From NCBI GenBank assembly GCA_018435665.1, contig JAHDND010000007.1:62001-126000 (forward strand): DNA of 64,000 nt. The letters run 5' to 3'. Position numbers and translations under genes: made by a program. The number at the start of each line of letters is the position of its first letter. Position 1 is the first letter of the stretch. Origin of the DNA: Candidatus Thiosymbion sp. (GTDB taxonomy: Bacteria; Pseudomonadota; Gammaproteobacteria; Chromatiales; Chromatiaceae). The notes below the pieces were generated by a model. The model was not told where the DNA came from and made no database searches. It worked only from the letters and a program-made list of their open reading frames with translations. Shown piece after piece: positions 10,884-61,943 of the stretch.

Positions 10884-11138
10884 ATGTCCAAAGGGCAAAA
10901 CCTGCAAGACCCCTTTCTCAACGCCCTGAGGAAGGAGCGTGTCCCCGTCTCCATCTTCCTGGTCAACGGCATCAAGTTGCAGGGGCAGATCGAGTCCTTC
11001 GATCAGTTCGTCGTCCTGCTCAAGAACAATGTCAGCCAAATGATCTACAAGCACGCCATCTCCACGGTCGTGCCCGCTCGCAACGTCCGGCTCTCCCCCC
11101 CCGACCTGGATGATCTGCCTGAGCCCGGCAATATTTGA
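10884..11138 (+). CDS. hfq: RNA chaperone Hfq
   Basis: 84 aa from the ATG at 10884 ([20 protein letters not shown]). It forms a hexameric Sm-like ring that pairs small RNAs with mRNAs. The Sm1 motif covers residues ~10-45, including the conserved Gln8, [22 protein letters not shown] (21-32 part) and Asp40. The Sm2 motif has YKHA at 55-58 with the conserved Lys56-His57. The C-terminal tail is short (residues ~70-84), as in many gammaproteobacteria. The gene stands between miaA and hflX as in the canonical superoperon. An Hfq that is intact on the same contig is relevant to the small RNA proposed at 53070-53130. Confidence 0.96.
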
Positions 11139-44659: not shown

Positions 44660-47635
44660 TCAATCCCCCTCTTCAAACTCCGCATTCTTGAACTTCAGGG
44701 TGCGGCAGTTTTCCCTGACGGCCCGTTGCAGGTCAGCATCGAAGCCCAAGCCGGATTCGGCCTGGATTTCCACGCTGATCTTGACCTTCACGCCCATGCG
44801 GGTCGTGAACTGCTGGACCACCTCGTCCACCAGGTCGGCGAATTGCTTCTTGGCCAGGATGGGGTCGAGGTCGATGCCGCCGTAGAACCGCTTCTTGGGG
44901 CTCGGCACGCCCGCCAGGCCGCCACCGCCGGGGATGGCTCCACCCGGGCCGATGGTTCCACCGCCGGCGGACGCGCCGCCGCCGGGCGTCGTCCCACCGC
45001 CGGACTGGTAGAAACCACGGGTCGGATCACCGACGCCCCGGCCATCCCCTCCTCCCGGATTGGCGCCATCACCACCCTGCCCGTCCCCGATACCTTGTGA
45101 TCCCCAGTCCATCGCGTTTGTCCCGCTCCCTGACCCAGCGGCCGCCGCTGCCCGCTCGGCCGCTAGCAGTGCCGCCACGTAAGCCGCCGCGGCCCCTGGC
45201 TCGATCAGCAGCAAGGCGGCATCCAGGGTGAAGGGGATGCGCTTGCCGAAGCTGAAGCCCAGGTAGCGCACTTCATCACCCTGCCCTTCCTGGCCCTGGG
45301 CGATGGCGAAGAAGTCCCGACTGTCCAGGCCGTCGTTGAGGGTGGCCTGGAAGACCTGGCTGTCCAGCAGGCGAGGCAGGTACAACTGCTGACAGCTCTG
45401 ATGCCAGACGGTCTGGGCACTGACCGCGACCACGCCGTCCTTCCAGAACCAGGTCTTGAGGAGCTGGTGCAGATGGAAGGGCGACCAGGCGGTGATGAGG
45501 AGTTCCTGGTCCTTGAGGACGTGCTCGATCTCCTGGGTCAGGTTCGCCGCCCCGGCGTTGAGAAGGAAGTGCTCCCACTTGACCTCGGACAGGCCCTTGC
45601 GGGGGCTGGCCTCCTGCAGGGGGGACAGGAGCCAGCGGTAGGTCTCGCGCAGCAGGCGCTTGAGGACCTCGAGGTCCTGGTCCAGGCTGGCGCTGGCCTG
45701 CTGGGCCTGGTAGGCGTCCAGATTGAGCTTGAGGTCCTTGATGTCGGCGACGATGGACTGCCAGGCGAGGACGGACCGGACCTGGTCCTTGAGCCGGTTG
45801 CGGCTCTCCTCGTCGGCGGCCAGGAATAGCAGGCGGTTCTGCTTGAAGCGCGGCTGCTCCCCGCGGTTTTTGAGGATGACGCTGGCCAGTTCGGTGGCCA
45901 GGTTGGGGCCGGAGCGACTGAAACCCGCCTCCGGGGGCAGCACCACCAGGCGCAAGGCCCAGTCGTCCGGCACGTCGCCGCTGGGGGTGAAGACATGGAT
46001 GCCGCCAAAGAGGCCGGTGGCCAGGGTCTTCTGCAGGCGCTCGCGGATGGCGGGCACCACGTCCTCCTTGTCGCTGAAGCGGCGCATGCGCTCTTCCTTC
46101 TCCCGACGCAGGTTGGGGCGGGTGTCCAGGTAGTAGCGATGATTGACGCGGTTGAGGTAATGCAAGCGGTCCCCCAAGCGGCGCAGGGCGTCCTTGTAGA
46201 GGCCGACCGCCTGGCCGGGCTGGGCGGCGCCGAGGAGGATGCGCTCGCTCTCGACGCCGCGCACCATCTGGTTGGCGGTGCTGGGGGCGCTGCCGAGGAA
46301 GATGGTGCGGGCGGTACGGCGGCAGGCCTGGAGGGCGCCCAGGCGGGTGTCGGTGCGCTCGATCTCGGTGGTCTCGGCGCGCTCGCCGTCCACGTCGCGC
46401 TCCAGGACCGGGTCCCAGCCCTGGGGCAAGGGGTAGATGGCGACGTTGCGGATGTCGCCGTCGTAGAGGGGCAGGCTGCCAGGGAGGATGAGCAGGTCAT
46501 TGTTCCCGTCCTGCCACAGGCGATGGATGACCTTGGCCATCAGCTTGAGCACCCCGCGGGTGCGCTGGAAGTTGTCCAGGCTGGACCAGTCCTCGTAGAG
46601 GCGGTCGAAGACCTCGGGGTGGATGGGATAGGCGCGCAGCAGGCGCTGGAAGTAGTGGCTGTCCTGGGTCTCGGCGGGGAAGTCGGCGCGGTTGGCGGTG
46701 TAGAAGTCGGCGAAGGCGCGGCACACCGCCTCCGCCGCCTCGGGCTGGGCGACGGCGCGGAACAGCCGGCGCCGGACGATCTCGAAGGCCTCCTCGGTGG
46801 CCACCGGCTTCCACAGGGCCTGGACCCGGCCGAAGTAGTGCTTCAGGGATTCCAGGGCCTTGACCCCGCGCTGGCTGCCGGCCTCGCGTTCCGACTCCGG
46901 CAGGGAGGCGAGCATGACGGCGGTGGGCACCGCCTTGAGGGCCTCGGTGAGGGCCTGGATGAAGGACAGATTGGAGTCGAAGGTGCCGCCGCGCAGGGGC
47001 TTGCCCTCCTCGAACTGACGCACGTAGGCCACCAGCTCATCCACCAGGATGACGCAGGGGGCGTAGGTGGCCAGCAGGGTCTCCAGGCTGGCCTTGCCCG
47101 GGGAGGTGCCGGAGGCGTCGGCGTCCGCCACCAGGGCATAGCCCGCGGCCCCGCCCAACTGCCAGGCCAGGTCGCCCCAGAGGGTGTTGAGCGCCTGTCC
47201 CTCGCGGACCAGGGGCTGGTTGGGGGAGGACTGGTTGCCGTCCAGGACCACCACCCGCGCCCGGGGCAGGGTGGTGACCCCGGCGGCGTCGAGGAGGGCG
47301 GAGACCCCGGGGAGGTCGCTGGCCGGGACCTGGGCACTGGCGAGGTGATAGACCGCCAGCTCGGTATGGGTCTTGCCGCCACCAAAGGCGGTCTGGAGCT
47401 GGATGACCGGGTCGCCCCCGCGGCCGGTGAGGCGGTGGAGCACCGAGTCGAACAGCAGGCGCATGCCCTCGGTGATGTAGGTGCGCTGGAAGAACAGCAC
47501 CGGGTCCTGGTACTCCGGCGTGGCCTTGCCGGCATGGACCCGGGACAGGTCGGCGGCGAACTCGGCCTGCTGGAAGGTGCCTTTGAGCACGTCCTCGTGG
47601 GGGACGGCGATCTCGCGCCAGGGCTTCAGAGTCAT
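44660..47635 (-). CDS. DUF499-type AAA+ ATPase of a helicase-methylase-ATPase defence-like locus
   Basis: 991 aa. An N-terminal AAA+ domain carries Walker [16 protein letters not shown] (Lys88) and Walker [13 protein letters not shown] (Asp199-Glu200). The opening [30 protein letters not shown] is typical of DUF499 proteins, which co-occur with DUF1156 methylases in anti-phage islands. The helical middle has no motif I can name. Residues ~836-910 are a Gly-rich low-complexity linker (repeated GGG, GDG, PGGG), followed by a compact C-terminal domain ([27 protein letters not shown]). It is last in the minus-strand cluster, 10 nt after the DUF4276 gene. Its role in defence is by association with its neighbours. 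Confidence 0.8.
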
Positions 47636-47644
47636 AGCGTTACC

Positions 47645-48217
47645 TCACGGGACCTTTGCCAGATGTGCAAGAGCGCGCATACCGGCGATAAATACCTGGA
47701 AACTGGGTGAGTGATTACCGTCCCAGCCCATCATCCGCCCCAGGCGCCGGGCGCCATCATTCTTCTGGAACCCCCTGATCCAATGTTCCAGATCCCGAGA
47801 GGGCTTGGCGCGGAGATCGGGATTGGGGCACTTTTTGCGCAGGGCCAGGGGATTCACGCCGGCTTCCGGATAGGCCATCGCCAATGCCTGGGGATCGCCC
47901 AAATACCAACTTTCCAACTCCTGACAAACCAGGCGGATCAGCACCTTGCGATCCGTGATGGCGGCCATCGCTTGTAGCCGGGACTTGAGGGCGGAACAGT
48001 CGGCATTGTCATTGTCACGCATAATCACAAAACAGGCTCCAGGCTCCCGCCAGCCCTTGAGCTTGATGGGAATACTCCGTTCCAGATCGGTCCTGCCGCG
48101 ATGCGCGACGCATAAAAAGTCCCGCTCATGCTGCCAGCCCGGGATCAGCCGGGGCAGAAACTCCAACAGGAACGCCTTCATGGACGGCTCTTCCAGCAAC
48201 AGGATCACCCGGCCCAT
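47645..48217 (-). CDS. DUF4276 family protein (TOPRIM-like), AAA partner
   Basis: 190 aa from the ATG at 48215-48217, which overlaps the stop of the AAA gene (TGATG). The start MGRVILLLEEPSMKAFLLEFLPRL contains the conserved acidic residue after the first strand, as in DUF4276/TOPRIM-like folds. CFVIMRDNDNADCSALKSRL supplies the DxD-type acidic motif, and RLVCQELESWYLGDPQAL is highly characteristic of DUF4276. Such proteins are regularly encoded directly after AAA_21-type ATPases, as a split version of the OLD nuclease arrangement. The likely job is nucleic-acid cleavage controlled by the ATPase; this is inferred, not shown. Confidence 0.8.
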   Translation of the reverse strand: MGRVILLLEEPSMKAFLLEFLPRLIPGWQHERDFLCVAHRGRTDLERSIPIKLKGWREPGACFVIMRDNDNADCSALKSRLQAMAAITDRKVLIRLVCQELESWYLGDPQALAMAYPEAGVNPLALRKKCPNPDLRAKPSRDLEHWIRGFQKNDGARRLGRMMGWDGNHSPSFQVFIAGMRALAHLAKVP

Positions 48218-49389
48218 CAGGGGTGGACCCCCTCGAACAGGCCCTGACGCCACAAGTACCCCGGCAGGTCGCCGGCCTCGACCAAGGCGCGCAGGTTCTC
48301 GGAATCGCTCGCGCGCTGGATCGTCGCAAAGCCGCCTTCCTTCCGCAGGTAATAAATCTCCTCCAGCTTGAGCGCGTCCAGAAAATCCGGCGAATGGGTA
48401 GAGACAAAGACCTGTCCACCGCGCTGGGCATAATCGCGGAACTCCTCCGCCAACTCGGCCAGCAATTCAGGATAGAGCTGGTTTTCCGGCTCCTCGACGG
48501 CCAGCAACGGGAAAGGCTTCGGGTCATAGAGCAGCACGAGATAAGCGAACATCTTGATGGTGCCATCGGAGACAAAGCGCGCAATGAAGGGATCCTTGAA
48601 ACTGCCATCCTGAAAACGCAGCACCAGGCGTCCGTCTTCGGTGGGTTTCGCTTCCACCTGCGTCACACCGGGTACGCGCCGCTTCATGGCGTCGAGTACC
48701 CGCTCGAAGCGGTCACCGTGGTAAGTGAAGAGATACTGGGCGACCTGGGCCAGATTGTCGCCACGGGTGGAGAGATGTTCCGCGTAGCCCTCCTCGGTGC
48801 TGGGGCGGGCCTCGGCGATGTGGAAATCGGAAATCTGCCAGTTCTCGATCAGGTTGCGAAATTCGGCCACGACCCGAAAGTCCTTGAACTGGCCGAGCCC
48901 TTTGATCGCCAGGACATCGGGTTCGTCGAGCACATACTCGGCGCGTTCCTCTTCAGCCCCTTCCTGACCATAAACCTGCTCGTTGGTGATGGCCGTGCCC
49001 CGACCCTTCGAGAAATCGACAAAGTGCCAAGGCTGACCGCGCTGGCCGCGACGAAATTTCAGCACCTCACGTTCCACCACCACCCGGCCATCCTCCTCGT
49101 CAATGGCAAGGTTATAAGTCGCCAGCCGGCCGCCGGATTCCCTGAACTTGAGTTCGATGCGCAGCGGCCCGCGTTGATGGCGACTCCGCAATTCCTTGAG
49201 CCCACCGCGCCGAGCTACGGCCTTCCCCGCGCTCAGGGTCAGCGCGTCCTTGAGGAAGGTAAAGACGTCGAACAGGGTACTTTTACCGGTGCCATTGGCG
49301 CCCACCAAGGCCACTAAACGCGGCAGATTCTCCAGTCGCGCCTTACGGAAGACCCGGTAGTTCTCGATCTCGATCGACTCGATTTGCAT
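48217..49389 (-). CDS. RecF/OLD-like AAA ATPase (AAA_21), DUF4276 partner
   Basis: 390 aa from the ATG at 49387-49389, with GAGGAGG 5 nt upstream; a GTG two codons earlier overlaps the ribosome site. The Walker A is ALVGANGTGKSTLFD near residue 30. A long insertion is followed by the signature-like FVSDGTIKMFAYLVLL, Walker B LLAVEEPENQLYPELL and the switch STHSPDFLDAL. This SMC/RecF/OLD-type ATPase head dimerises on ATP. It directly follows the methylase gene (10 nt) and overlaps the DUF4276 gene. The pair is also common on its own as a two-gene element, so it may have been inserted into this cluster. Confidence 0.87.
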   Translation of the reverse strand: MQIESIEIENYRVFRKARLENLPRLVALVGANGTGKSTLFDVFTFLKDALTLSAGKAVARRGGLKELRSRHQRGPLRIELKFRESGGRLATYNLAIDEEDGRVVVEREVLKFRRGQRGQPWHFVDFSKGRGTAITNEQVYGQEGAEEERAEYVLDEPDVLAIKGLGQFKDFRVVAEFRNLIENWQISDFHIAEARPSTEEGYAEHLSTRGDNLAQVAQYLFTYHGDRFERVLDAMKRRVPGVTQVEAKPTEDGRLVLRFQDGSFKDPFIARFVSDGTIKMFAYLVLLYDPKPFPLLAVEEPENQLYPELLAELAEEFRDYAQRGGQVFVSTHSPDFLDALKLEEIYYLRKEGGFATIQRASDSENLRALVEAGDLPGYLWRQGLFEGVHP

Positions 49390-49399
49390 GACCACCTCC

Positions 49400-52279
49400 T
49401 CAGAGATCTAGCGGCCTTTGCGAGCCCAAGAGACCGGCCTCGCTGGCGGCCTGCTCGATGCCGCTCCAGGCGGTAATGAGTTCGTTATAGGCCCGGGCGT
49501 CCTCGGCCCAGCCCTGGCGTTCGCAGAGGGTATAGAGCCGGTAGGCCAGGGCGCGGATGGCCTCGCCGCGGGTAGGCATGGGCGCCAGCAGGGCGCCGGC
49601 GGCGACCTCGCCATCCTGATTGAGGGCACGGATCAGCTGGTGCAGGGCCTCCCAGACGGGGGTACGGGTGTCCTGGACAGGGGACCAGTCCGGGGGCAGC
49701 TCCGCCCAGCGCAGCAGGCGCACCTCGCCCTGGCCGGAGGCGATGACGCCCGCCTCGGCGAGACCCGCGGGACTGGTGCCCTTGGCACGGGCCAGGGTGT
49801 CCGCGTCGCCATACTTGCCGATGGCCCAGCCGTGGGTCTCGAACCAATGCAGGCAGAATTGGGTGTCGCGGTCGAAGTCGTCCTCGGCGAGGAAGCGGTT
49901 GATGTGTTGCAGGGCGGTGCGCACGCTCATGGGGGTGCCGTCGGCCTCCAGCACGGCGGCATACTTGCTGAAGATGGCCATGCCGGGGCCGATGATGGCC
50001 TGGGACAGGTCCACTGGCGCCACCGGGCTGTTGATGCCGCCGCGGGTCATGTCTTCCAGGGCCTCGGGTAGTGCGGCGTTGAGTTCGCGCAGGAACTCGC
50101 GGCGGCTGATGGTGGGAGCGTCGGAATCGCGTTTGCGGCAGACGAGGACAATGCTGGAGGCGAGGGCGTTGGTTTCTGCACCAACCATCCGGCGATCAAG
50201 TTCCGTTCGCATCGGCCAGGTGCCGGTGAGGGCGAAGCCAGCACGGACTACCGCGTCTAGAAAGGTTTCCCAGCCCGTACTGGAGGTGCCCACGTCACCC
50301 TTAGTTTCGGCTTGCTTGAAGGCATAGTAAATGGTGACCGGGAAGGCCGGATGGGCCTGCTCGGCCAGGTTGTGGATGGCGCGGGTCATGCCGTCGAGGA
50401 AGAAGCCTTCGGCCTTTTCTTTACTGCCATGGCGGTAAGGGGTGGCGACCAGTTCCTCGGCCTTGGGTACGGCCAGCGTCGCGTAAAGCCCGGGGAAGAT
50501 CGGCTTTAGACTCTTGCGAAGCCAGACGTAAAAGAAGTCGGAGAGATCTGCATACCCGATGTTGTCGTAATAAGGAGGATCGGAGGAGATGACCTTGGCC
50601 GTACTTATGACCTGTGATTGGGCATCTGCTTGGGATGCAAATCCAGCCACATAAGGCCAGACATTCTCAAGTCCGGTATGGATAGACTTAATGCCCCCTT
50701 CAAAATTTCCGCTCGAATCAGACAGTGGATTACTTTCTACAAAATCCCAAACCATCGGAATCGCTTGTCGTCCAAAAGTATTGCGTGCGTGTTCCCTAAG
50801 GGAGGCCCAGGCGCAGACACCTGAATTCCGGTCAGCTATTTTGTCCGTCGCAAATCCCAAATACACCCCCACCGCCTGTGCATACGCCTTCGCCCCGTTG
50901 CCTCCAACATCCAGCCCTGTGCTGTCATCGACCATCCCTGCTGCCCGCGTATCCTTGTGGCATTTCTCGATGGCCACCTGCACCAGATCGGAAAAGGTAG
51001 TCAGCGCAACGAGTTGGCGGGGCGTGAAGAGGTCGCCATAGGTTTTTAGTCCATAGAGCGGCGGCGAGAACCAGCGCGGGTTCTCCGGCATCGCAACTTC
51101 CGGCTTCCAATCGGGCTGCGCTTCGTGCGCGATTGTTTCCTGCTCAGGCGTGGGGGCGAGATAAACGCGACCTCGCTTCCCCTCGGCCACGACGGCCATC
51201 AGTCGTGCGCCCATGCGCCCAGCGTTGGCTTCCGCGTAAATGTGTTTCGGTTCGATGGGCGTATGGGACAACAAGCACTGGAAATTTGCCCCGCGGGTAA
51301 GCTTGGTGCCGTTCTTCGCGCTCTCCGGCAGTTTCCCGACCTTCACCATAAAGCGATAACGATCTCCTTCGACCACTGGCGCCACATAGGCCTCCTTGCC
51401 CGCCTTGCTCGACAGCACAAAGGTTGAGGCCAGCGGTACCTCGGCATGACTGAAGACCGGGTTGGGGCTTCTCACCGTTCGCGCCCACAGCCAGGCGATC
51501 ACGGTGAGCTTATCCCCCAGGATGGGCTTCAAGTCCGGCCGTTCGGCGATCATCTCCGCGGTGATTTCGATCTTGGGGAAGAGGTGGCCAATGCGCTTTT
51601 CCGCCTCCGCCCGCATCCAGGCACCATAGCGACGCACGTCCTCGGCCAGGCCCTTGGCGCCGGACCAATCCTCGACCAGCTTGCCCTGCTTCTGGTCCTT
51701 GGGCAGGGGTCCCACCGGCGGCCGGTTGGCGAAGCGCGGCGGGATCTCGATCATCGCCTTGTTGATGGTCACGGCCACCGGGTTGAGGTCCGAGGCCCAG
51801 GCCTCCAGCCCCAGACGCTGGGCTTCCAGCGGTAGCGCCCCGCCCCCGGCGAAGGGGTCATGAAAGGCCGGTAGTTTGTCCGGGTTGAAAAGCTCCGCCG
51901 CCTGGGGGTGTCCCTTGTTCAGGGCACAGGTCTCGCGCCAGCTATTCCAGATCTCCGCCCGGGCGCGGGCCAGCACCTCCTCGTTGTTGGTGTTCTCCCA
52001 CTGCACCAGGTCCTCGATGATCTTGAACAGCCGCTCCCGTTCCTGGGTGGCCTTTTCCTTATTCACCCCCCGCCCCAGGTGGCGCTCGTAGCCGGGGTCG
52101 TTGACCATCTGGGCGAAGATCACCGCCCGCGCCGCCGCCAGGGGCCGGCGTGCCCACCAGAGGTGCAGGGTGCTGGGGTGGCCATGGCGGATCGACTTTT
52201 CCCGCGCCGCGGCGGTGTTGATCTTGTCCAGCGGCAGGGCGACTTCGATGAGCTTCTTAGGGGTCTTGATGGCGGTCAT
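49400..52279 (-). CDS. DUF1156-type adenine DNA methyltransferase
   Basis: 959 aa. The N-terminal DUF1156 region has [50 protein letters not shown]. The SAM-binding motif is DPFAGGG (Asp141), and the catalytic motif is DPPYYDN (Asp567-Pro-Pro-Tyr), as in N6-adenine or N4-cytosine methylases. The long middle and C-terminal regions are probably target recognition and regulation. In known loci of this type the methylase marks self DNA. The DNA between about 50560 and 51480 is clearly AT-richer than the flanks (24 G+C of 60 at 50701-50760), suggesting segmental exchange within the gene. It starts 7 nt after the NYN gene. Confidence 0.87.
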
Positions 52280-52285
52280 GGTGGG

Positions 52286-52903
52286 TCAACTCCATGGGGC
52301 CGGACGGCTCAAGGCGAAGCCATCGGGTTTGATGATCCGGTCGGGTAGCTGGCTGGCGCGCAGCTTGTCTTCCCCAATGGTGAGGTAGCCATGGGCGTGG
52401 CGTTTGAGTTCGTTCGAATATCGACCCGGCGGGAAGGCGACGATGACACGCTTGGTTGGAAACCGCTCGCGCACTCGGCGTATGGGGGTGGTCAGATCAC
52501 TGTCCCCGGAGACAATGAGCGCGATATCGAAACCGTCATCGAAGGCATCGCACAGCAACTGGAAGGCAATGTTGACATCGGTCATCTTCTCTTCGTAGTC
52601 CGGCCAGTTGGCGCCGCATTGCCAGCATTTGCGCTTTTTTTCCAGGTAATGGCCGAACTGGCATTGCACGCCCTGTTGCGCCAGCGCCTCGAGGTAGTCG
52701 TTCTGGCGCTTTTGATCGGCAGCGTTGCGGCCGTTGTTGCGAATACGGGTGGAAAAGTAATGGGTTGTCACGAGGTGCTGGCCCGGCTTGAGCAAATGCC
52801 GGGCGAGCAGGGCGACGTCCAGCCAATAGTAGCGTTTGAAGCCTGAGTGCTTGAGGCCGAAATAGAGGTTGAATCCGTCCACGTAGGCGATCAGTCGTGC
52901 CAT
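52286..52903 (-). CDS. NYN-domain (LabA/DUF88-like) nuclease
   Basis: 205 aa. The PIN-like NYN fold is shown by IAYVDGFNLYFGLKH at the N-terminus (first catalytic Asp), EEKMTDVNIAFQLLCDAFDDGFDIALIVSGDSDLTTPI (acidic residues), and RVIVAFPPGRYSNELKRHA. A CxxC pair (RKCWQCGANW) near residue 95 may bind zinc. NYN proteins are predicted RNases. A GGAG site precedes its ATG. It is the first gene after the helicase on the minus strand, but 312 nt separate them. Inclusion of an NYN nuclease in a helicase-methylase-ATPase locus is not something I recall as standard. Confidence 0.85.
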   Translation of the reverse strand: MARLIAYVDGFNLYFGLKHSGFKRYYWLDVALLARHLLKPGQHLVTTHYFSTRIRNNGRNAADQKRQNDYLEALAQQGVQCQFGHYLEKKRKCWQCGANWPDYEEKMTDVNIAFQLLCDAFDDGFDIALIVSGDSDLTTPIRRVRERFPTKRVIVAFPPGRYSNELKRHAHGYLTIGEDKLRASQLPDRIIKPDGFALSRPAPWS

Positions 52904-53001
52904 TCACACATCTCCAGCTTGTACCCGTCCCACCGCCTTACCCTCCCCTGCCAGGGGTGGGGATCAGGAGAATCAGGGTCTTATGCCGCCGGGGCCGCAC
53001 T

Positions 53002-53040
53002 GGCGACTGGGTTGTACGGTACTGATACGTCGGCTTGACG
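53002..53040 (+). repeat. Possible degenerate remnant of the structured repeat
   Basis: Three blocks occur in the same order as in the copy at 31765-31810: GGCGACTGG (53002-53010), ATACGTC (53025-53031) and GGCTTGACG (53032-53040). Spacing to the second block is 23 nt, against 24 in the intact copy, and six bases are missing before the third. The last block supplies the -35 hexamer of the promoter described at 53035-53063. The matches are short and could be chance. Confidence 0.4.
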
Positions 53041-53063
53041 GTGCCGGGAGCCATGTTCATAAT
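53035..53063 (+). promoter_or_regulatory. Near-consensus sigma-70 promoter for a small RNA
   Basis: TTGACG (53035-53040) and CATAAT (53058-53063) are separated by exactly 17 nt. Each hexamer differs from consensus (TTGACA, TATAAT) at one position. Transcription would start near 53070. This is the strongest promoter-like sequence I noticed in the window, and it points away from the neighbouring coding strand, towards two plus-strand terminators. Confidence 0.75.
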
Positions 53064-53069
53064 CGTGTT

Positions 53070-53130
53070 TACTAACCCCGCCGGAGATAGCATCTCCGGC
53101 CCGACGCCCCGAAAGGGGCGTCTCTTTTTG
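53070..53130 (+). ncRNA. Candidate small RNA of about 60 nt in the defence cluster
   Basis: The predicted transcript has a ~10-nt single-stranded leader, then a perfect 9-bp hairpin GCCGGAGAT-AGC-ATCTCCGGC (53080-53100). Two bases later comes a perfect 8-bp hairpin with a GNRA loop, GACGCCCC-GAAA-GGGGCGTC (53103-53122), followed by TCTTTTT, a textbook intrinsic terminator. A near-consensus promoter lies directly upstream. It is antisense to the untranslated region between the helicase and NYN genes. A plus-strand open frame through it (from 53053) looks like translated hairpins, not a protein. Function unknown; a decoy, an antitoxin-like RNA or control of the operon are all possible. Confidence 0.68.
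53103..53129 (+). terminator. Intrinsic terminator of the candidate small RNA
   Basis: An 8-bp GC-rich stem (53103-53110 with 53115-53122) with a GAAA loop is followed by TCTTTTT (53123-53129). On the minus strand the hairpin is preceded, not followed, by the T-rich tract, so it should not stop transcripts of the minus-strand gene cluster. Confidence 0.85.
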
Positions 53131-53169
53131 TGGCGCAAGGGTCCCATCAGCGGGAACAGCGCCAGCCCG

Positions 53170-53199
53170 ACGCCTCCCTCGTGGAGGCGTTTTGCTTTT
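53170..53199 (+). terminator. Second plus-strand terminator
   Basis: ACGCCTCC (53170-53177) pairs with GGAGGCGT (53183-53190) around the loop CTCGT, followed by TTTGCTTTT. It shares the lead-in GCCCGACGCC with the first terminator 67 nt upstream. It may be a backup terminator for plus-strand transcription before it enters the 3' end of the helicase gene. Confidence 0.75.
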
Positions 53200-53215
53200 C
53201 GCCCGCCCTCCAAGC

Positions 53216-56782
<3,567 letters not shown>

Positions 56783-56839
56783 GGGGTTTCAGTGCCCGGG
56801 GGTGGGGGTGAGACGGGGCCTGCGGGGGGCGGCAGGCAT

Positions 56840-57160
56840 TTAACGGCTCTGCAGGCAGTAGTTGCCGGAGCTGTAGTAGCCCGGGGGGCAGGGGCCGAGT
56901 TTTTCGATGACGGTCTTGCTGTCGGGCCGGCCCAGGCAATAGTTGCCGCTGGAGTAGTACCCCGGTGGGCAGGGGCCGTCCTTGCCGATGACGGGCTTGG
57001 CGCTTTTATTGGGGACGCAGTAGTTCCCGGAGCTGTAGTAGCCCGGGGGGCAGGCGCCAGTCTTGGGGATGGGCTTGATCTCGCCCGCCGCGGTGGCCAG
57101 CAGGGGGGAGAGGAGAGCGAGGGCGGCAAGCGGAGCGGCGCGGCGGAACACGGGCAACAC
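56840..57160 (-). CDS. Secreted small protein with three CPPGYYSSGNYC repeats
   Basis: 106 aa. A signal peptide (RRAAPLAALALLSPLLATAAG) is followed by three copies of a 27-residue unit. Each unit contains CPPGYYSSGNYC, and six cysteines in total suggest disulfides in the periplasm or outside the cell. The linkers are less conserved (VPNKSAKPVIGKD and LGRPDSKTVIEKL); the third unit is truncated by the C-terminus. I do not know a function for this motif. The gene is co-directional with and 58 nt upstream of the helicase gene, but nothing shows that they are functionally linked. Confidence 0.72.
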   Translation of the reverse strand: MLPVFRRAAPLAALALLSPLLATAAGEIKPIPKTGACPPGYYSSGNYCVPNKSAKPVIGKDGPCPPGYYSSGNYCLGRPDSKTVIEKLGPCPPGYYSSGNYCLQSR

Positions 57161-57378
57161 CTCGGGCTAAGGAACCAGGCACAATGGTACCTGATGGATT
57201 AGACAGAGTGCGTCCAGTTCCGACACGGCAGTCTCCTTAACGGCACGGTCGGCGTTCCGGCTGGCGCGGGGACGGGCGGGAGGGGACCGGCGCCCTTAGG
57301 GGGGATACAGCACGAAACCTAAGATGGCGGAGGGGTAACCTAGCACGCCCGAGGCTCGATTATGCCGTGATGGGGAGA

Positions 57379-57923
57379 AAAATGCGCGGGGTTTTGGTGA
57401 GCGGGATTTTGGCCACGGCCTTTGGCGTGGCGGCCTCCTGTTTGAAGATCCCGATCCCCTGGCGGGCAGGTCCTTCCCCCCGAACCCCTTGAGGGCGGCA
57501 TCCAACGGCCCCGGTTCGTGTACGAACCCTGACCCGCTTTTGAGGGATGAAGACGGTTCATTCGCCTATGCCCAGGTCATCAATGAATCCAATTAGGGCA
57601 CGAAGGGCAGGTCCAGCGGCGTGACCAGCTCCCAGGTGTTCGGGTCCGGATCGCTGGCCAGCTGGTTCGAGGCCGATACCGTCCAGCGGGCCCATAAGCT
57701 CAACCCGGTCGGGGGTTCCAGGCGCTCGGGATTGCGGCCTTGTCCCCCGACCAGGCCTAGGCAGTGGCGATGCGCGCCGTGGCGCCCGTGGAGTCTGCCC
57801 ACAACGAGCCCTGCCGTGGAGTGGCGGGCGGTCCAGGATGCCATCCTGGCCGCGGATGCGCTGGGTCAGGACTTTCTGGGCCAGGCGGGCGGCCATCCGC
57901 CCACTGCCGGGGGCGTCGGCTAG
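57379..57923 (+). pseudogene. Probable decayed gene with a secretion signal-like start
   Basis: The plus strand shows coding-like segments in different frames. The ATG at 57379 begins MRGVLVSGILATAFGVAASC, a signal or lipoprotein-like start. A second segment (FEDPDPLAGRSFPPNPLRAAS...YAQVINESN) is in another frame. Then follow SSQVFGSGSLASWFEADTVQ in one frame, LGIAALSPDQA with an in-frame stop, and VEWRAVQDAILAADALGQDF at the end. Third-position GC bias is strong in each segment but the frame changes. I read this as a frameshifted gene of unknown family. The overlap of its end with the GH5 gene's stop is consistent with convergent genes. Confidence 0.35.
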
Positions 57924-59059
57924 GCCAGACTGGCATGACGGTGGAATTGTTCCGGCTGGCCGAGGTTGGGAATCCATCCGCGTTCCACGCAATCTCTAAA
58001 ACACCAGGCGGGCGTGGTTTCGGTTTTGTAATTCCAGAAAAACCATCCCAGGTATTTTTCAAACGTCAGCATTTGCGCGGCGGCATAACCACGATAAGCC
58101 AGCGACATTTGATATTCATCCATGCTTTCCAGGGCATGATTGAAGGGACCTTCCGCCCACAGGGATACCACCTTCAGGTTCATTCCTAAACTCCATTCTC
58201 CGCAATAGACGGGGTATTTAAGTTCCCTGATGATTTCGTCAGCTTCATCTTTCAATTCAACCACGCTTTTGTGTATGTGTCCAAAAATGTCCAAATCAAT
58301 GTCTTCACGGACGAAACATTGGTATCGATGAATGTCCAGTATGACATTATTAAACTTGGGTGGCTCCATGAAGCCTATATAGTTTCTAAAGGAACGAAAG
58401 CCGTCATGAAAAACCACCGCCACCTGGTCTGGTGGGCAATGTTTACGAATGCGATGATAGGCGGCGATGTAATATTTTTTAAGGATTTCCGTGTCTATAT
58501 CCCAGCGCGGTTCATTAAGAACTTCAATGGCATGCAAGGCTGGCGTGTCGTGATAACGCTCAGCCAGCCATCCCGCGAAATTCACGGCATGTTCTATGTA
58601 TTCCTGTTGGGTATGCCATTCACAAACATCCATGATGCCGCCATTATCGAAACCATTCTGACATCCGGGGGCGGCGTGTAAATCCAGTATCACCGCCAGT
58701 TCGAATTCTTCAGCCCAGTGCATCACCTGATCGACAATCGCCAAACCGCCCTCAACGAATGGATAGGGGTTTTCACCATAGGAGCGATGATACGGATAAT
58801 TTTTTCCAAATAACCAATGTCCAACCGGCAAACGCACGGCGTTAATGCCGACACCGGTAAGCCATTGAAAATCGTCTTTGGTGATAAAGCTATTCCAATG
58901 CCGATGCAGGCGCTCTGTCGCGGCCTCTCTACCCAATTCCGTGCAAAACGCGGTTTCATCCCTGGCCGCCAGGCCATCAAATAAACTCGGTGTTATCCAT
59001 TTTTCGAGAACCAACCAGCCACCTAAATTGACCCCGCGCAGTTTTTTGGGATGAGGCAT
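57920..59059 (-). CDS. Glycoside hydrolase family 5 (exo-1,3-beta-glucanase-like)
   Basis: 379 aa from the ATG at 59057-59059, with GAGGAG upstream. It opens with KKLRGVNLGGWLVLEKWITPSLF, the characteristic start of fungal-type GH5 exo-1,3-beta-glucanases. Then come AVRLPVGHW, the HAAPGCQNG segment, the acid/base glutamate in EVLNEPRWD, and the nucleophile glutamate in YPVYCGEWSLG. There is no signal peptide, so it is probably cytoplasmic. Base composition is clearly lower in GC than the rest of the window (29 G+C of 60 at 58741-58800). It follows a degenerate ABC protein by 10 nt. Likely acquired horizontally; the substrate is inferred from the family. Confidence 0.87.
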   Translation of the reverse strand: MPHPKKLRGVNLGGWLVLEKWITPSLFDGLAARDETAFCTELGREAATERLHRHWNSFITKDDFQWLTGVGINAVRLPVGHWLFGKNYPYHRSYGENPYPFVEGGLAIVDQVMHWAEEFELAVILDLHAAPGCQNGFDNGGIMDVCEWHTQQEYIEHAVNFAGWLAERYHDTPALHAIEVLNEPRWDIDTEILKKYYIAAYHRIRKHCPPDQVAVVFHDGFRSFRNYIGFMEPPKFNNVILDIHRYQCFVREDIDLDIFGHIHKSVVELKDEADEIIRELKYPVYCGEWSLGMNLKVVSLWAEGPFNHALESMDEYQMSLAYRGYAAAQMLTFEKYLGWFFWNYKTETTPAWCFRDCVERGWIPNLGQPEQFHRHASLA

Positions 59060-59069
59060 CTCGCTCTCC

Positions 59070-60737
59070 TCAAAGTTCAAGGAATTTCTTGTGGAACATC
59101 GCGGCATTTTCTAATTTCGTGATGCTAAGGAAGGTTGCATTGGGCAAGTGCTGCAGGATTAAACGTAACATGTTCTCTTCACCAAGGGCATCCAGGGAGT
59201 CAAAGGCTTCCTGGATGAATATCCAATGCGGCTTGTTTAATAGCAATCGCACCATGCCTAGGCGTTGTTGCTCTTCGCGCGACAAGCTGCGCGTCCAGAT
59301 ATCCACATTATCCAATTGATCAATTAAATGTTCCAATTCGACGATTTTTAATGTTCGTTTTAAATCCTCGTCGGTGAAGCTGGTTCCCGTTTGTGGATAA
59401 CAGATCGCTTCACGCAGCGAAAGGTTCGCGGGAAGGTGTGGGCGTGGCGGCATGAAAAACAATCGATCGTCATTTGGTAATTCAATTTTTCCGGTTCCCC
59501 AAGGGCGGAGTTGCGCGATGGCGCGAAATAATTTAGCCCCCGTGAAGGTGTTGCCCGTGATGAGTACATGATCACCTTGCTCGATTTCCATGTTGATGCC
59601 GCTGGCAAGCACGGGACCATTCAGCTTGGCGATGGTCAAATCACGAAATGCCAATACGGGTTTATCAGTCTGTTCAACGACTATCCAATGATGTTCCGGT
59701 TTGGTGATCTCCTCGTCCACTGTGTCCAGGGCCTTGATTAAATTCAGGACGCGCTCCACGGAAGCGCGCCACAGGGCGATCGATGCTAAATTATTGATCG
59801 GCCATGATAATGCCGATGCCATTTCCTGAAAGGCTTGCGCGGACTGCATCAAGGCACCCAGGGTGATCGCGCCTGTAATATAGCGTGGGGATGAGACCAG
59901 TATGGGGAATGCCATGGACAACAACCCATAACCGGTGCTGAATGCTAAAATGTATTGCCATGCGGTGGTTTGTAGTGACCAAACCTCCCTGATTTGGTCA
60001 AATAATGCTTTAAAACGCTTTTTTTCAAAACTCTCCCCTTCAATCAAGGCGATTGCCTGGCTGTTTTCCCGGGCGTCAATCAAACCAGAGCGAAAATTGG
60101 CTTCCGCGGTTTGGTTGGCATTGGTGGCTCTGGTCAAAGGGATGCCGACCAACCAGCCTAGCCAGGAGGCTAAACCCGCATAGATGACGGCTATCCAGAC
60201 TAAATGACCGTGTAAATTGAACTCGAAAATAAAATCAACGGTAACGACACCGGACAATGACCAAAGAATCTGCGTAAAGCTTATCAGGGATAGACACGAA
60301 TAAAATAAGGAATGTCCCAGTGAAATCGCCGATTCGGTCGCGATCCGGCAATCTTCGGCAATCCGCTCATCTGGATTATCATGCTCTCCTGGCATGTGTG
60401 ATACCAGATAATGCCGACCATCATTCATCCAGCGGTCCGTCACCTTTTCGGTCAACCAGGTACGCCAATCAATCATCAGTTTTCGCTTCACGGTTAAATG
60501 AGCTACCGTTATCGCGATATTGGCAACCATGATCACTAAAAGTAACAAGATCTGCCTGGTCAAGCCCGACATGGAGTGTTGCTCGATCGCGTCAAACAAC
60601 GCCGCATTCCATTTATTGACCAGGACCGCCATGACAATTTGTAAAACAGTCAGTCCGATTAAAAACGCCGTTGACAGGCGTATGGTTCCTTTATTTTCCG
60701 AAAACCAGAAGCGTCCTGCAAAACGAACAAAATCCAT
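59070..60737 (-). CDS. SbmA/YddA-family ABC protein with a degenerate ATPase domain
   Basis: 555 aa from the ATG at 60735-60737 (AAGG 6 nt upstream); an ATG eight codons earlier is open. Residues ~1-330 match the SbmA/BacA-YddA membrane domain (NKWNAALFDAIEQ, DWRTWLTEKVTDRWMNDGRHY, NPDERIAEDCR, ANFRSGLIDARENSQAIALIEGE). The C-terminal ATPase domain is fused but damaged. Walker A reads ITGNTFTGAKLF, without the usual glycine and lysine positions. The signature is SLSREEQQRLGMVRLLL. Walker B is WIFIQEAFDSLD with Gln in place of Asp, and the H-loop His is missing (SITKLENAAMF). ATP hydrolysis is doubtful. SbmA itself works without an ATPase domain by using the proton gradient, so transport may persist. 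AT-richer than most of the window. Confidence 0.82.
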   Translation of the reverse strand: MDFVRFAGRFWFSENKGTIRLSTAFLIGLTVLQIVMAVLVNKWNAALFDAIEQHSMSGLTRQILLLLVIMVANIAITVAHLTVKRKLMIDWRTWLTEKVTDRWMNDGRHYLVSHMPGEHDNPDERIAEDCRIATESAISLGHSLFYSCLSLISFTQILWSLSGVVTVDFIFEFNLHGHLVWIAVIYAGLASWLGWLVGIPLTRATNANQTAEANFRSGLIDARENSQAIALIEGESFEKKRFKALFDQIREVWSLQTTAWQYILAFSTGYGLLSMAFPILVSSPRYITGAITLGALMQSAQAFQEMASALSWPINNLASIALWRASVERVLNLIKALDTVDEEITKPEHHWIVVEQTDKPVLAFRDLTIAKLNGPVLASGINMEIEQGDHVLITGNTFTGAKLFRAIAQLRPWGTGKIELPNDDRLFFMPPRPHLPANLSLREAICYPQTGTSFTDEDLKRTLKIVELEHLIDQLDNVDIWTRSLSREEQQRLGMVRLLLNKPHWIFIQEAFDSLDALGEENMLRLILQHLPNATFLSITKLENAAMFHKKFLEL

Positions 60738-61856: not shown

Positions 61857-61943
61857 TGGTGCCGAGGAGAGGACTTGAACCTCCACGGGCTTTCGCCCAC
61901 AAATACCTGAAACTTGCGCGTCTACCAATTCCGCCACCCCGGC
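61857..61943 (-). tRNA. tRNA-Leu (CAG)
   Basis: The 87-nt gene on the minus strand begins GCCGGGGTGGCGGAATTGG and ends with an encoded CCA. The acceptor stem GCCGGGG/CCTCGGC, the T arm GGTTCAAGTCC, and a long variable arm (GTGGGCGAAAGCCCGT) identify a class II tRNA. The anticodon loop TTCAGGT gives anticodon CAG (positions 61907-61909), reading CUG leucine codons. It closely resembles the E. coli tRNA-Leu(CAG). Confidence 0.95.

Follow-up and report, generated by a model that had tools for sequence, protein, structure and literature searches.

The window, by which we mean the whole 64,000-nucleotide stretch of DNA that was analysed, carries on its minus strand an operon that PADLOC profiles identify as a complete Hma locus. 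It comprises the HmaA helicase (53216–56782; PADLOC HmaA, 1983 bits), an NYN-domain nuclease of the HEC-09 type (52286–52903; PADLOC and Pfam NYN), the HmaB DUF1156 adenine methyltransferase (49400–52279; profile matches), the HEC-01B AAA ATPase with the DUF4276 protein HEC-01A, which form another embedded pair (47645–49395; PADLOC), and the HmaC DUF499 ATPase (44660–47635; profile matches). HmaA, HmaB, and HmaC are all present with PADLOC matches near full length, so that the criterion for Hma, or DUF499 BR type 1, is met. The gap that separates the stop of hmaA (53216) from the start of NYN (52903) holds, on the strand opposite to the operon, a small RNA gene that is head-to-head with the NYN gene, transcribed divergently from it, and convergent with the 3' end of hmaA.

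The NYN protein, which is the predicted partner and target of this RNA, meets the HEC-09 profile PDLC04163 over residues 1–205 with an E-value of 1.6 × 10−96 (PADLOC), and residues D8, N11, D108, D133, and D135 are invariant across 23 diverse NYN proteins. A structure prediction based on an alignment of window and contig proteins (A3) gives a confident model (pLDDT of 92.4), whose sole significant match among solved structures is 2QIP/VPA0982, which we take to be an NYN/LabA-like structure. From its domain, fold, and acidic residues the protein is a putative endoribonuclease, the activity itself being inferred.

The RNA gene begins with a sigma-70-type promoter on the plus strand (53035–53063), in which TTGACG (53035–53040) and CATAAT (53058–53063) are separated by exactly 17 nt. 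This is the sole 10/12 promoter match in a scan of positions 46000–60000, where 7 matches of at least 9/12 were found vs. 2.5 expected. The RNA itself, of about 60 nt (53070–53129, plus strand), is placed by a start approximately 7 nt past the −10 box, by a conserved match at 53072–53131, and by its fold, its covariation, and the R1 model, which scores it at 80.2 bits (the window row being part of that model). It opens with a conserved single-stranded ACCCC (53075–53079, columns 4–8 of alignment A1), followed by hairpin 1 (53080–53100), GCCGGAGAT-AGC-ATCTCCGGC, a covarying stem of nine perfect pairs that presents the apex loop UAGCA, written for the family as (U/G)(A/C)G(C/U)A. Hairpin 2 is an intrinsic terminator (53103–53129), GACGCCCC-GAAA-GGGGCGUC plus UCUUUUU in the RNA; in the DNA its stem-loop GACGCCCC-GAAA-GGGGCGTC has eight perfect pairs (53103–53122) and is followed by TCTTTTT (53123–53129), and it is the richest in G-C pairs among the terminators listed in the same scan. 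The 60-nt RNA folds at −34 kcal/mol vs. −16 kcal/mol in shuffled sequences (z = −5.9), with none of 200 shuffles as good. The initial annotation had claimed the promoter, the 9-bp hairpin, and the 8-bp GAAA-loop terminator with its T-rich tail, all of which held with their positions exact, and from them a transcript of roughly 60 nt from the plus strand, which is strongly upheld by conservation, covariation, and fold, in the absence of transcript data.

Scanning a single sequence is insufficient by itself, and chance is excluded because the RNA is conserved elsewhere. A blastn search with the intergenic region gives distant matches on plasmids of Thermus oshimai and Sulfuricystis, where the RNA is oriented as in the window, with hmaA on one side and either NYN or hmaB on the other, and where a promoter of the form TTGACA-17-(TTTAAT or CATAAT) lies upstream in both cases. 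A pattern blind to genomic context, GGCCCGACGCC-N3-18-GGCGTCTCT, applied to one genome per species (84,980 species), yields 51 loci that fall in several phyla (proteobacterial, Chloroflexota of the Caldilineaceae, and other bins), and NYN and/or Hma genes adjoin the RNA in a large majority of them. Approximately one fifth of the context-blind genome matches look like chance terminators that are coding or lack stem 1; these were excluded (e.g., L026, L028, L032, L036, L042, L050, L051, and L063); weak model matches of 30 bits or less (L120–L126), which have no NYN nearby, were left uncounted.

Alignment A1 holds 46 distinct RNA sequences, and over the whole structure it contains 66 double-changed cells vs. 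14.1 ± 3.1 when shuffled and 2–8 in slid controls, with a covariation score of 0.289 vs. 0.027–0.085 in the slid controls; two nested hairpins account for this covariation. The search pattern touches only the last two pairs of stem 1, while the invariance at the base of hairpin 2 is partly built in by it. The near-invariant 5' CCCC (each C in 39–45 of the 46 rows) is not set by the pattern, and neither is the near-invariant apex loop, which is mostly UAGCA. Every member of the family has a terminator as its hairpin 2. Homologous loci lacking the promoter and hairpins had been named by the initial annotation as what would refute the gene. When this was examined, a promoter of at least 9/12 was found at the right place in 27 of the 40 non-phage loci related to the window (which is itself counted), vs. 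0.47 on average and never more than 3 in shuffles, and stem 1 was seen to covary, so the claim survived. No Rfam 15 family scores above its gathering cut-off on the RNA, the best sub-threshold family being Atu_C8 at 23 bits vs. a cut-off of 50. There is thus little doubt in our view that the small RNA gene is real and that its family is absent from Rfam 15.

A second, divergent two-hairpin unit, which the initial annotation had missed, follows on the same strand (approximately 53138–53200; R1 score of 30.9 bits, E-value of about 5 × 10−7). Tandem copies also occur at L022, L024, L030, L037, and L076, and many other loci have a single unit. A repeat or mobile element was considered and rejected, as the window's own genome holds just these two adjacent units. 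At one locus (L076/L154, G002:C143) there are three copies scoring 50–58 bits, a tandem pair and a third about 0.5 kb off, and this triplet adjoins an HmaA gene with an in-frame stop. We also observe that the apex loop in its wider form, AUAGCAU (window 53088–53094), resembles the anticodon loop of tRNA-Ala, with a U at position 33 and A37. The loop could conceivably mimic a tRNA substrate, an idea that comes from this resemblance only. A tRNA gene (window 61860–61943, minus strand, 47 bits) lies a few kb from the locus.

The initial annotation had tied the RNA to a defence-like operon, and this we refine, as the partner is very probably the NYN nuclease rather than the operon as a whole. Searches for HmaA that were blind to the RNA, covering 398 genomes of the phylum plus plasmids, gave 29 usable Hma loci, and the RNA is present in 5/5 of those with NYN and in 0/24 of those without it (p = 8 × 10−6). 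The RNA as a core Hma component was accordingly rejected, being missing at the 24 loci that lack NYN. In the same 398-genome sample, a close HEC-09 protein (E < 10−85) occurs in 6 genomes, all 6 of which have the RNA (called at 45 bits or more), vs. 2 of the 392 others (p = 5 × 10−12). Two genomes (G089 and G103) have NYN and the RNA with no HmaA found at the search threshold, and a class-wide HEC-09 search finds the RNA model adjoining NYN at L095, L096, L097, and L106, with no Hma gene in the 3.6 kb available at L097. At L022, NYN and the RNA adjoin a more distant helicase/methylase pair.

Several loci depart from this association. The RNA is kept beside an NYN remnant at L055 (L055:4905–5285), and at L064 an AAA ATPase and a second gene replace NYN (L064:4691–6916); together they suggest that the hmaA-hmaB junction is a site at which the module is inserted and removed. 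In Sulfuricystis (L004) the RNA lies within decayed hma genes, and with L114 this makes four loci where the RNA lacks an intact NYN. Such RNAs may be relics, or they may point to another partner, and we can offer either only as a possibility. Copies at L015, L025, L048, and L058 have no NYN within the 8 kb examined.

More distant NYN relatives (30–45% identity) mostly have no match to the RNA model, and yet a terminator-like hairpin on the gene's own strand lies within 120 nt upstream of the start in 21 of 26 of these genes vs. 0 of 112 control genes (other genes in plasmid loci). By eye, many of these leaders combine a promoter and an ACCCC-type 5' end with a first hairpin and then the terminator; examples are Leptospira L149 (TTGACA-17-TATAAA), a human-gut phage contig (L151, with a Bacteroidales-like promoter), L161, and L101–L105. 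Plasmids of 3.5–4.2 kb from E. coli and Klebsiella (L110, L146, and L147) have a structured leader and terminator before NYN. Homology of these leader RNAs to the window RNA remains a possibility resting on architecture only, since covariation has not been shown. Among ColE1-type plasmids of 3.5–4.3 kb from E. coli, Serratia, and Klebsiella (L110, L145, L146, and L147), the NYN gene takes up approximately one fifth of the tiny replicon and is directly preceded by a structured leader, with a terminator in most. At L098 and L108 the NYN frames are about 497 codons long and appear to be fusions with another domain; upstream of them lie a divergent promoter and a terminator-like RNA.

The RNA is also found at approximately 18 distinct viral loci. 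Some of these copies score like host ones, namely L013 at 84 bits (on a contig of 38% GC), L140 at 79, and L136 at 79 (on a 244-kb contig); L013, L005, L006, L008, L011, and L012 are rows inside the RNA model, and L136, L140, L144, and others are outside it. Most matches to a second pattern are complementary at all three free stem pairs, and for this reason most are not chance. A search of 19 viral records, among them the complete genome of Dolichospermum phage Dfl-JY45, found HEC-09 in none; many of the other records are fragments. Phage copies from the first scan lack a strong promoter and several are at intergenic or 3'-UTR positions; the L013 copy comes after a baseplate-like gene and the L011 copy after a capsid-like gene. 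Phage RNAs without NYN lie at L013:1122–1183, L140:529–591, L136:7248–7310, and L005:8001–8064, on contigs of 37–67% GC. Phage TE mutants evade ToxIN via a pseudo-ToxI RNA (PMC5086642), and Racrs are RNA decoys against CRISPR (PMC10651486). By analogy the phage copies may be decoys as well, a reading we hold only tentatively and would not put at even odds, the decoy action being inferred.

With this in mind, our preferred reading is that the RNA is an antitoxin or inhibitor of the NYN nuclease, to which we assign a probability of roughly 0.6 in the absence of transcript, binding, or toxicity data. Supported directly are the architecture, conservation, and covariation of the RNA, its promoter, its link to NYN, the intact nuclease residues, and the phage copies without NYN; binding, inhibition, toxicity, the trigger, and decoy action are all inferred. 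The dedicated RNA gene and the adjacent endoribonuclease would form a two-part module, the RNA consisting of a 5' ACCCC tail, hairpin 1 with an apex loop that would be recognised, and terminator hairpin 2. The NYN protein would be bound by the RNA and kept inactive, in the manner of type III toxin-antitoxin RNA antitoxins, and the module would probably serve as a back-up (abortive) arm inside the restriction-like Hma locus. Should the RNA supply fail, for instance through a phage-imposed stop to host transcription, the stable NYN protein would be freed and RNA would be cut, while phage-borne copies of the RNA would neutralise NYN. The initial annotation had offered an antitoxin, a guide, or a template as roles, and of these the best fit is the antitoxin, as the RNA tracks the NYN nuclease. 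Against it stand the facts that the RNA of this subfamily is divergent from NYN and not, as at classical type III loci, upstream in one operon, that no pseudoknot is predicted, and that an intact NYN is missing beside a few of the RNAs.

One alternative is a role as guide or activating cofactor, with NYN being RNA-directed or RNA-stimulated and the hairpin as its scaffold. The strict link to NYN agrees with this, and the conserved apex loop and single-stranded ACCCC could serve as scaffold and recognition parts. There is, however, no variable spacer-like segment, as conservation is highest in the unpaired parts and variation falls in the paired arms, and the occurrence of the RNA alone in phages is a better fit to an inhibitor than to an activator, so we consider this unlikely. 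Also improbable is a regulator of expression only, i.e., an sRNA that acts on the NYN/Hma mRNA in trans or as a cis-antisense, perhaps in an Hfq-dependent manner, with the distant leader terminators acting as attenuators. In its favour, the RNA is antisense to the hmaA-NYN intergenic region, its C-rich 5' end might pair with ribosome-binding sites, the terminator in the NYN leaders is an attenuator-like layout, and the genome has an hfq gene (PF17209 match at C38:72902–73087, window 10902–11087), as the initial annotation had correctly stated for this contig. On the other side, the architecture is common to divergent and sense layouts, and antisense pairing is therefore not the shared theme; a fixed loop on a covarying stem suggests a protein ligand; and the phage copies are distant from any NYN mRNA. 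The claim that the RNA is antisense to the intergenic part of the operon holds as to position, but antisense itself is unlikely to be the point, because distant NYN genes have sense-strand RNAs and the RNA occurs in phages that have none of these genes.

The least plausible alternative, which we regard as very unlikely, is a mere strong terminator that insulates hmaA from the NYN promoter region without any functional RNA. Hairpin 2 does terminate in every member, and some phage elements do follow late genes (L013 and L011). The T-run, however, points away from the direction of the operon, the RNA has its own promoter, the element is absent from Hma loci without NYN, and conservation extends to hairpin 1 with its loop and to the 5' ACCCC, none of which is needed for termination.

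A bolder extension of the antitoxin reading is a new class of RNA-controlled nucleases, in which NYN endoribonucleases of several phyla, in settings that range from Hma islands to E. coli plasmids of 3.5 kb, would each have a cognate two-hairpin RNA and would be countered by solitary decoys in many unrelated phages; we lean slightly against it at present. If the antitoxin reading is right, NYN nucleases without an assigned role would be the toxins of a new family with RNA antitoxins, an embedded RNA component would be added to the Hma locus, and ready-made RNA inhibitors would exist in phage genomes. The open-access literature that we searched mentions neither the RNA nor an NYN type III pair (subscription papers and preprints were outside its scope).

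Among known systems, type III toxin-antitoxins (ToxIN, CptIN, and TenpIN) share the combination of an endoribonuclease (only predicted here) with a small structured RNA that has an intrinsic terminator, the tandem RNA units seen at some loci (the second being weak in the window, and many other loci having a single unit), and, for ToxIN, known phage RNA mimics (PMC5086642); the distant NYN relatives add the upstream same-strand terminator (21/26). They differ in that the toxin here would be an NYN (PIN-like) protein and not of the ToxN fold, that the RNA of the window subfamily is divergent with its own promoter and so does not meet the upstream-in-operon criterion, and that the RNA here is usually one or two imperfect units, with no predicted pseudoknot, embedded in Hma. 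AbiF/Abi_2 with its ncRNA (RCd22, PMC12373285) is similar in that an abortive-infection protein is held by a trans-acting structured ncRNA, whereas the protein family (Abi_2) and the RNA are different and the RNA lies upstream on the strand of the gene. The host locus, with HmaA helicase, HmaB methyltransferase, and HmaC DUF499 ATPase, is that of the Hma system (PADLOC 2021, PMC8565338) and of the type-1 DUF499 BR system (PMC12839542), and neither paper mentions any RNA where it deals with the system; the RNA is not a core part of it, as 24 of the 29 RNA-blind Hma loci are without it. The closest likeness for the viral copies lies with Racrs (PMC10651486) and phage pseudo-ToxI, which are likewise solitary phage copies of a defence RNA, with the difference that the target of the decoy action, which is inferred here, would be the NYN nuclease.
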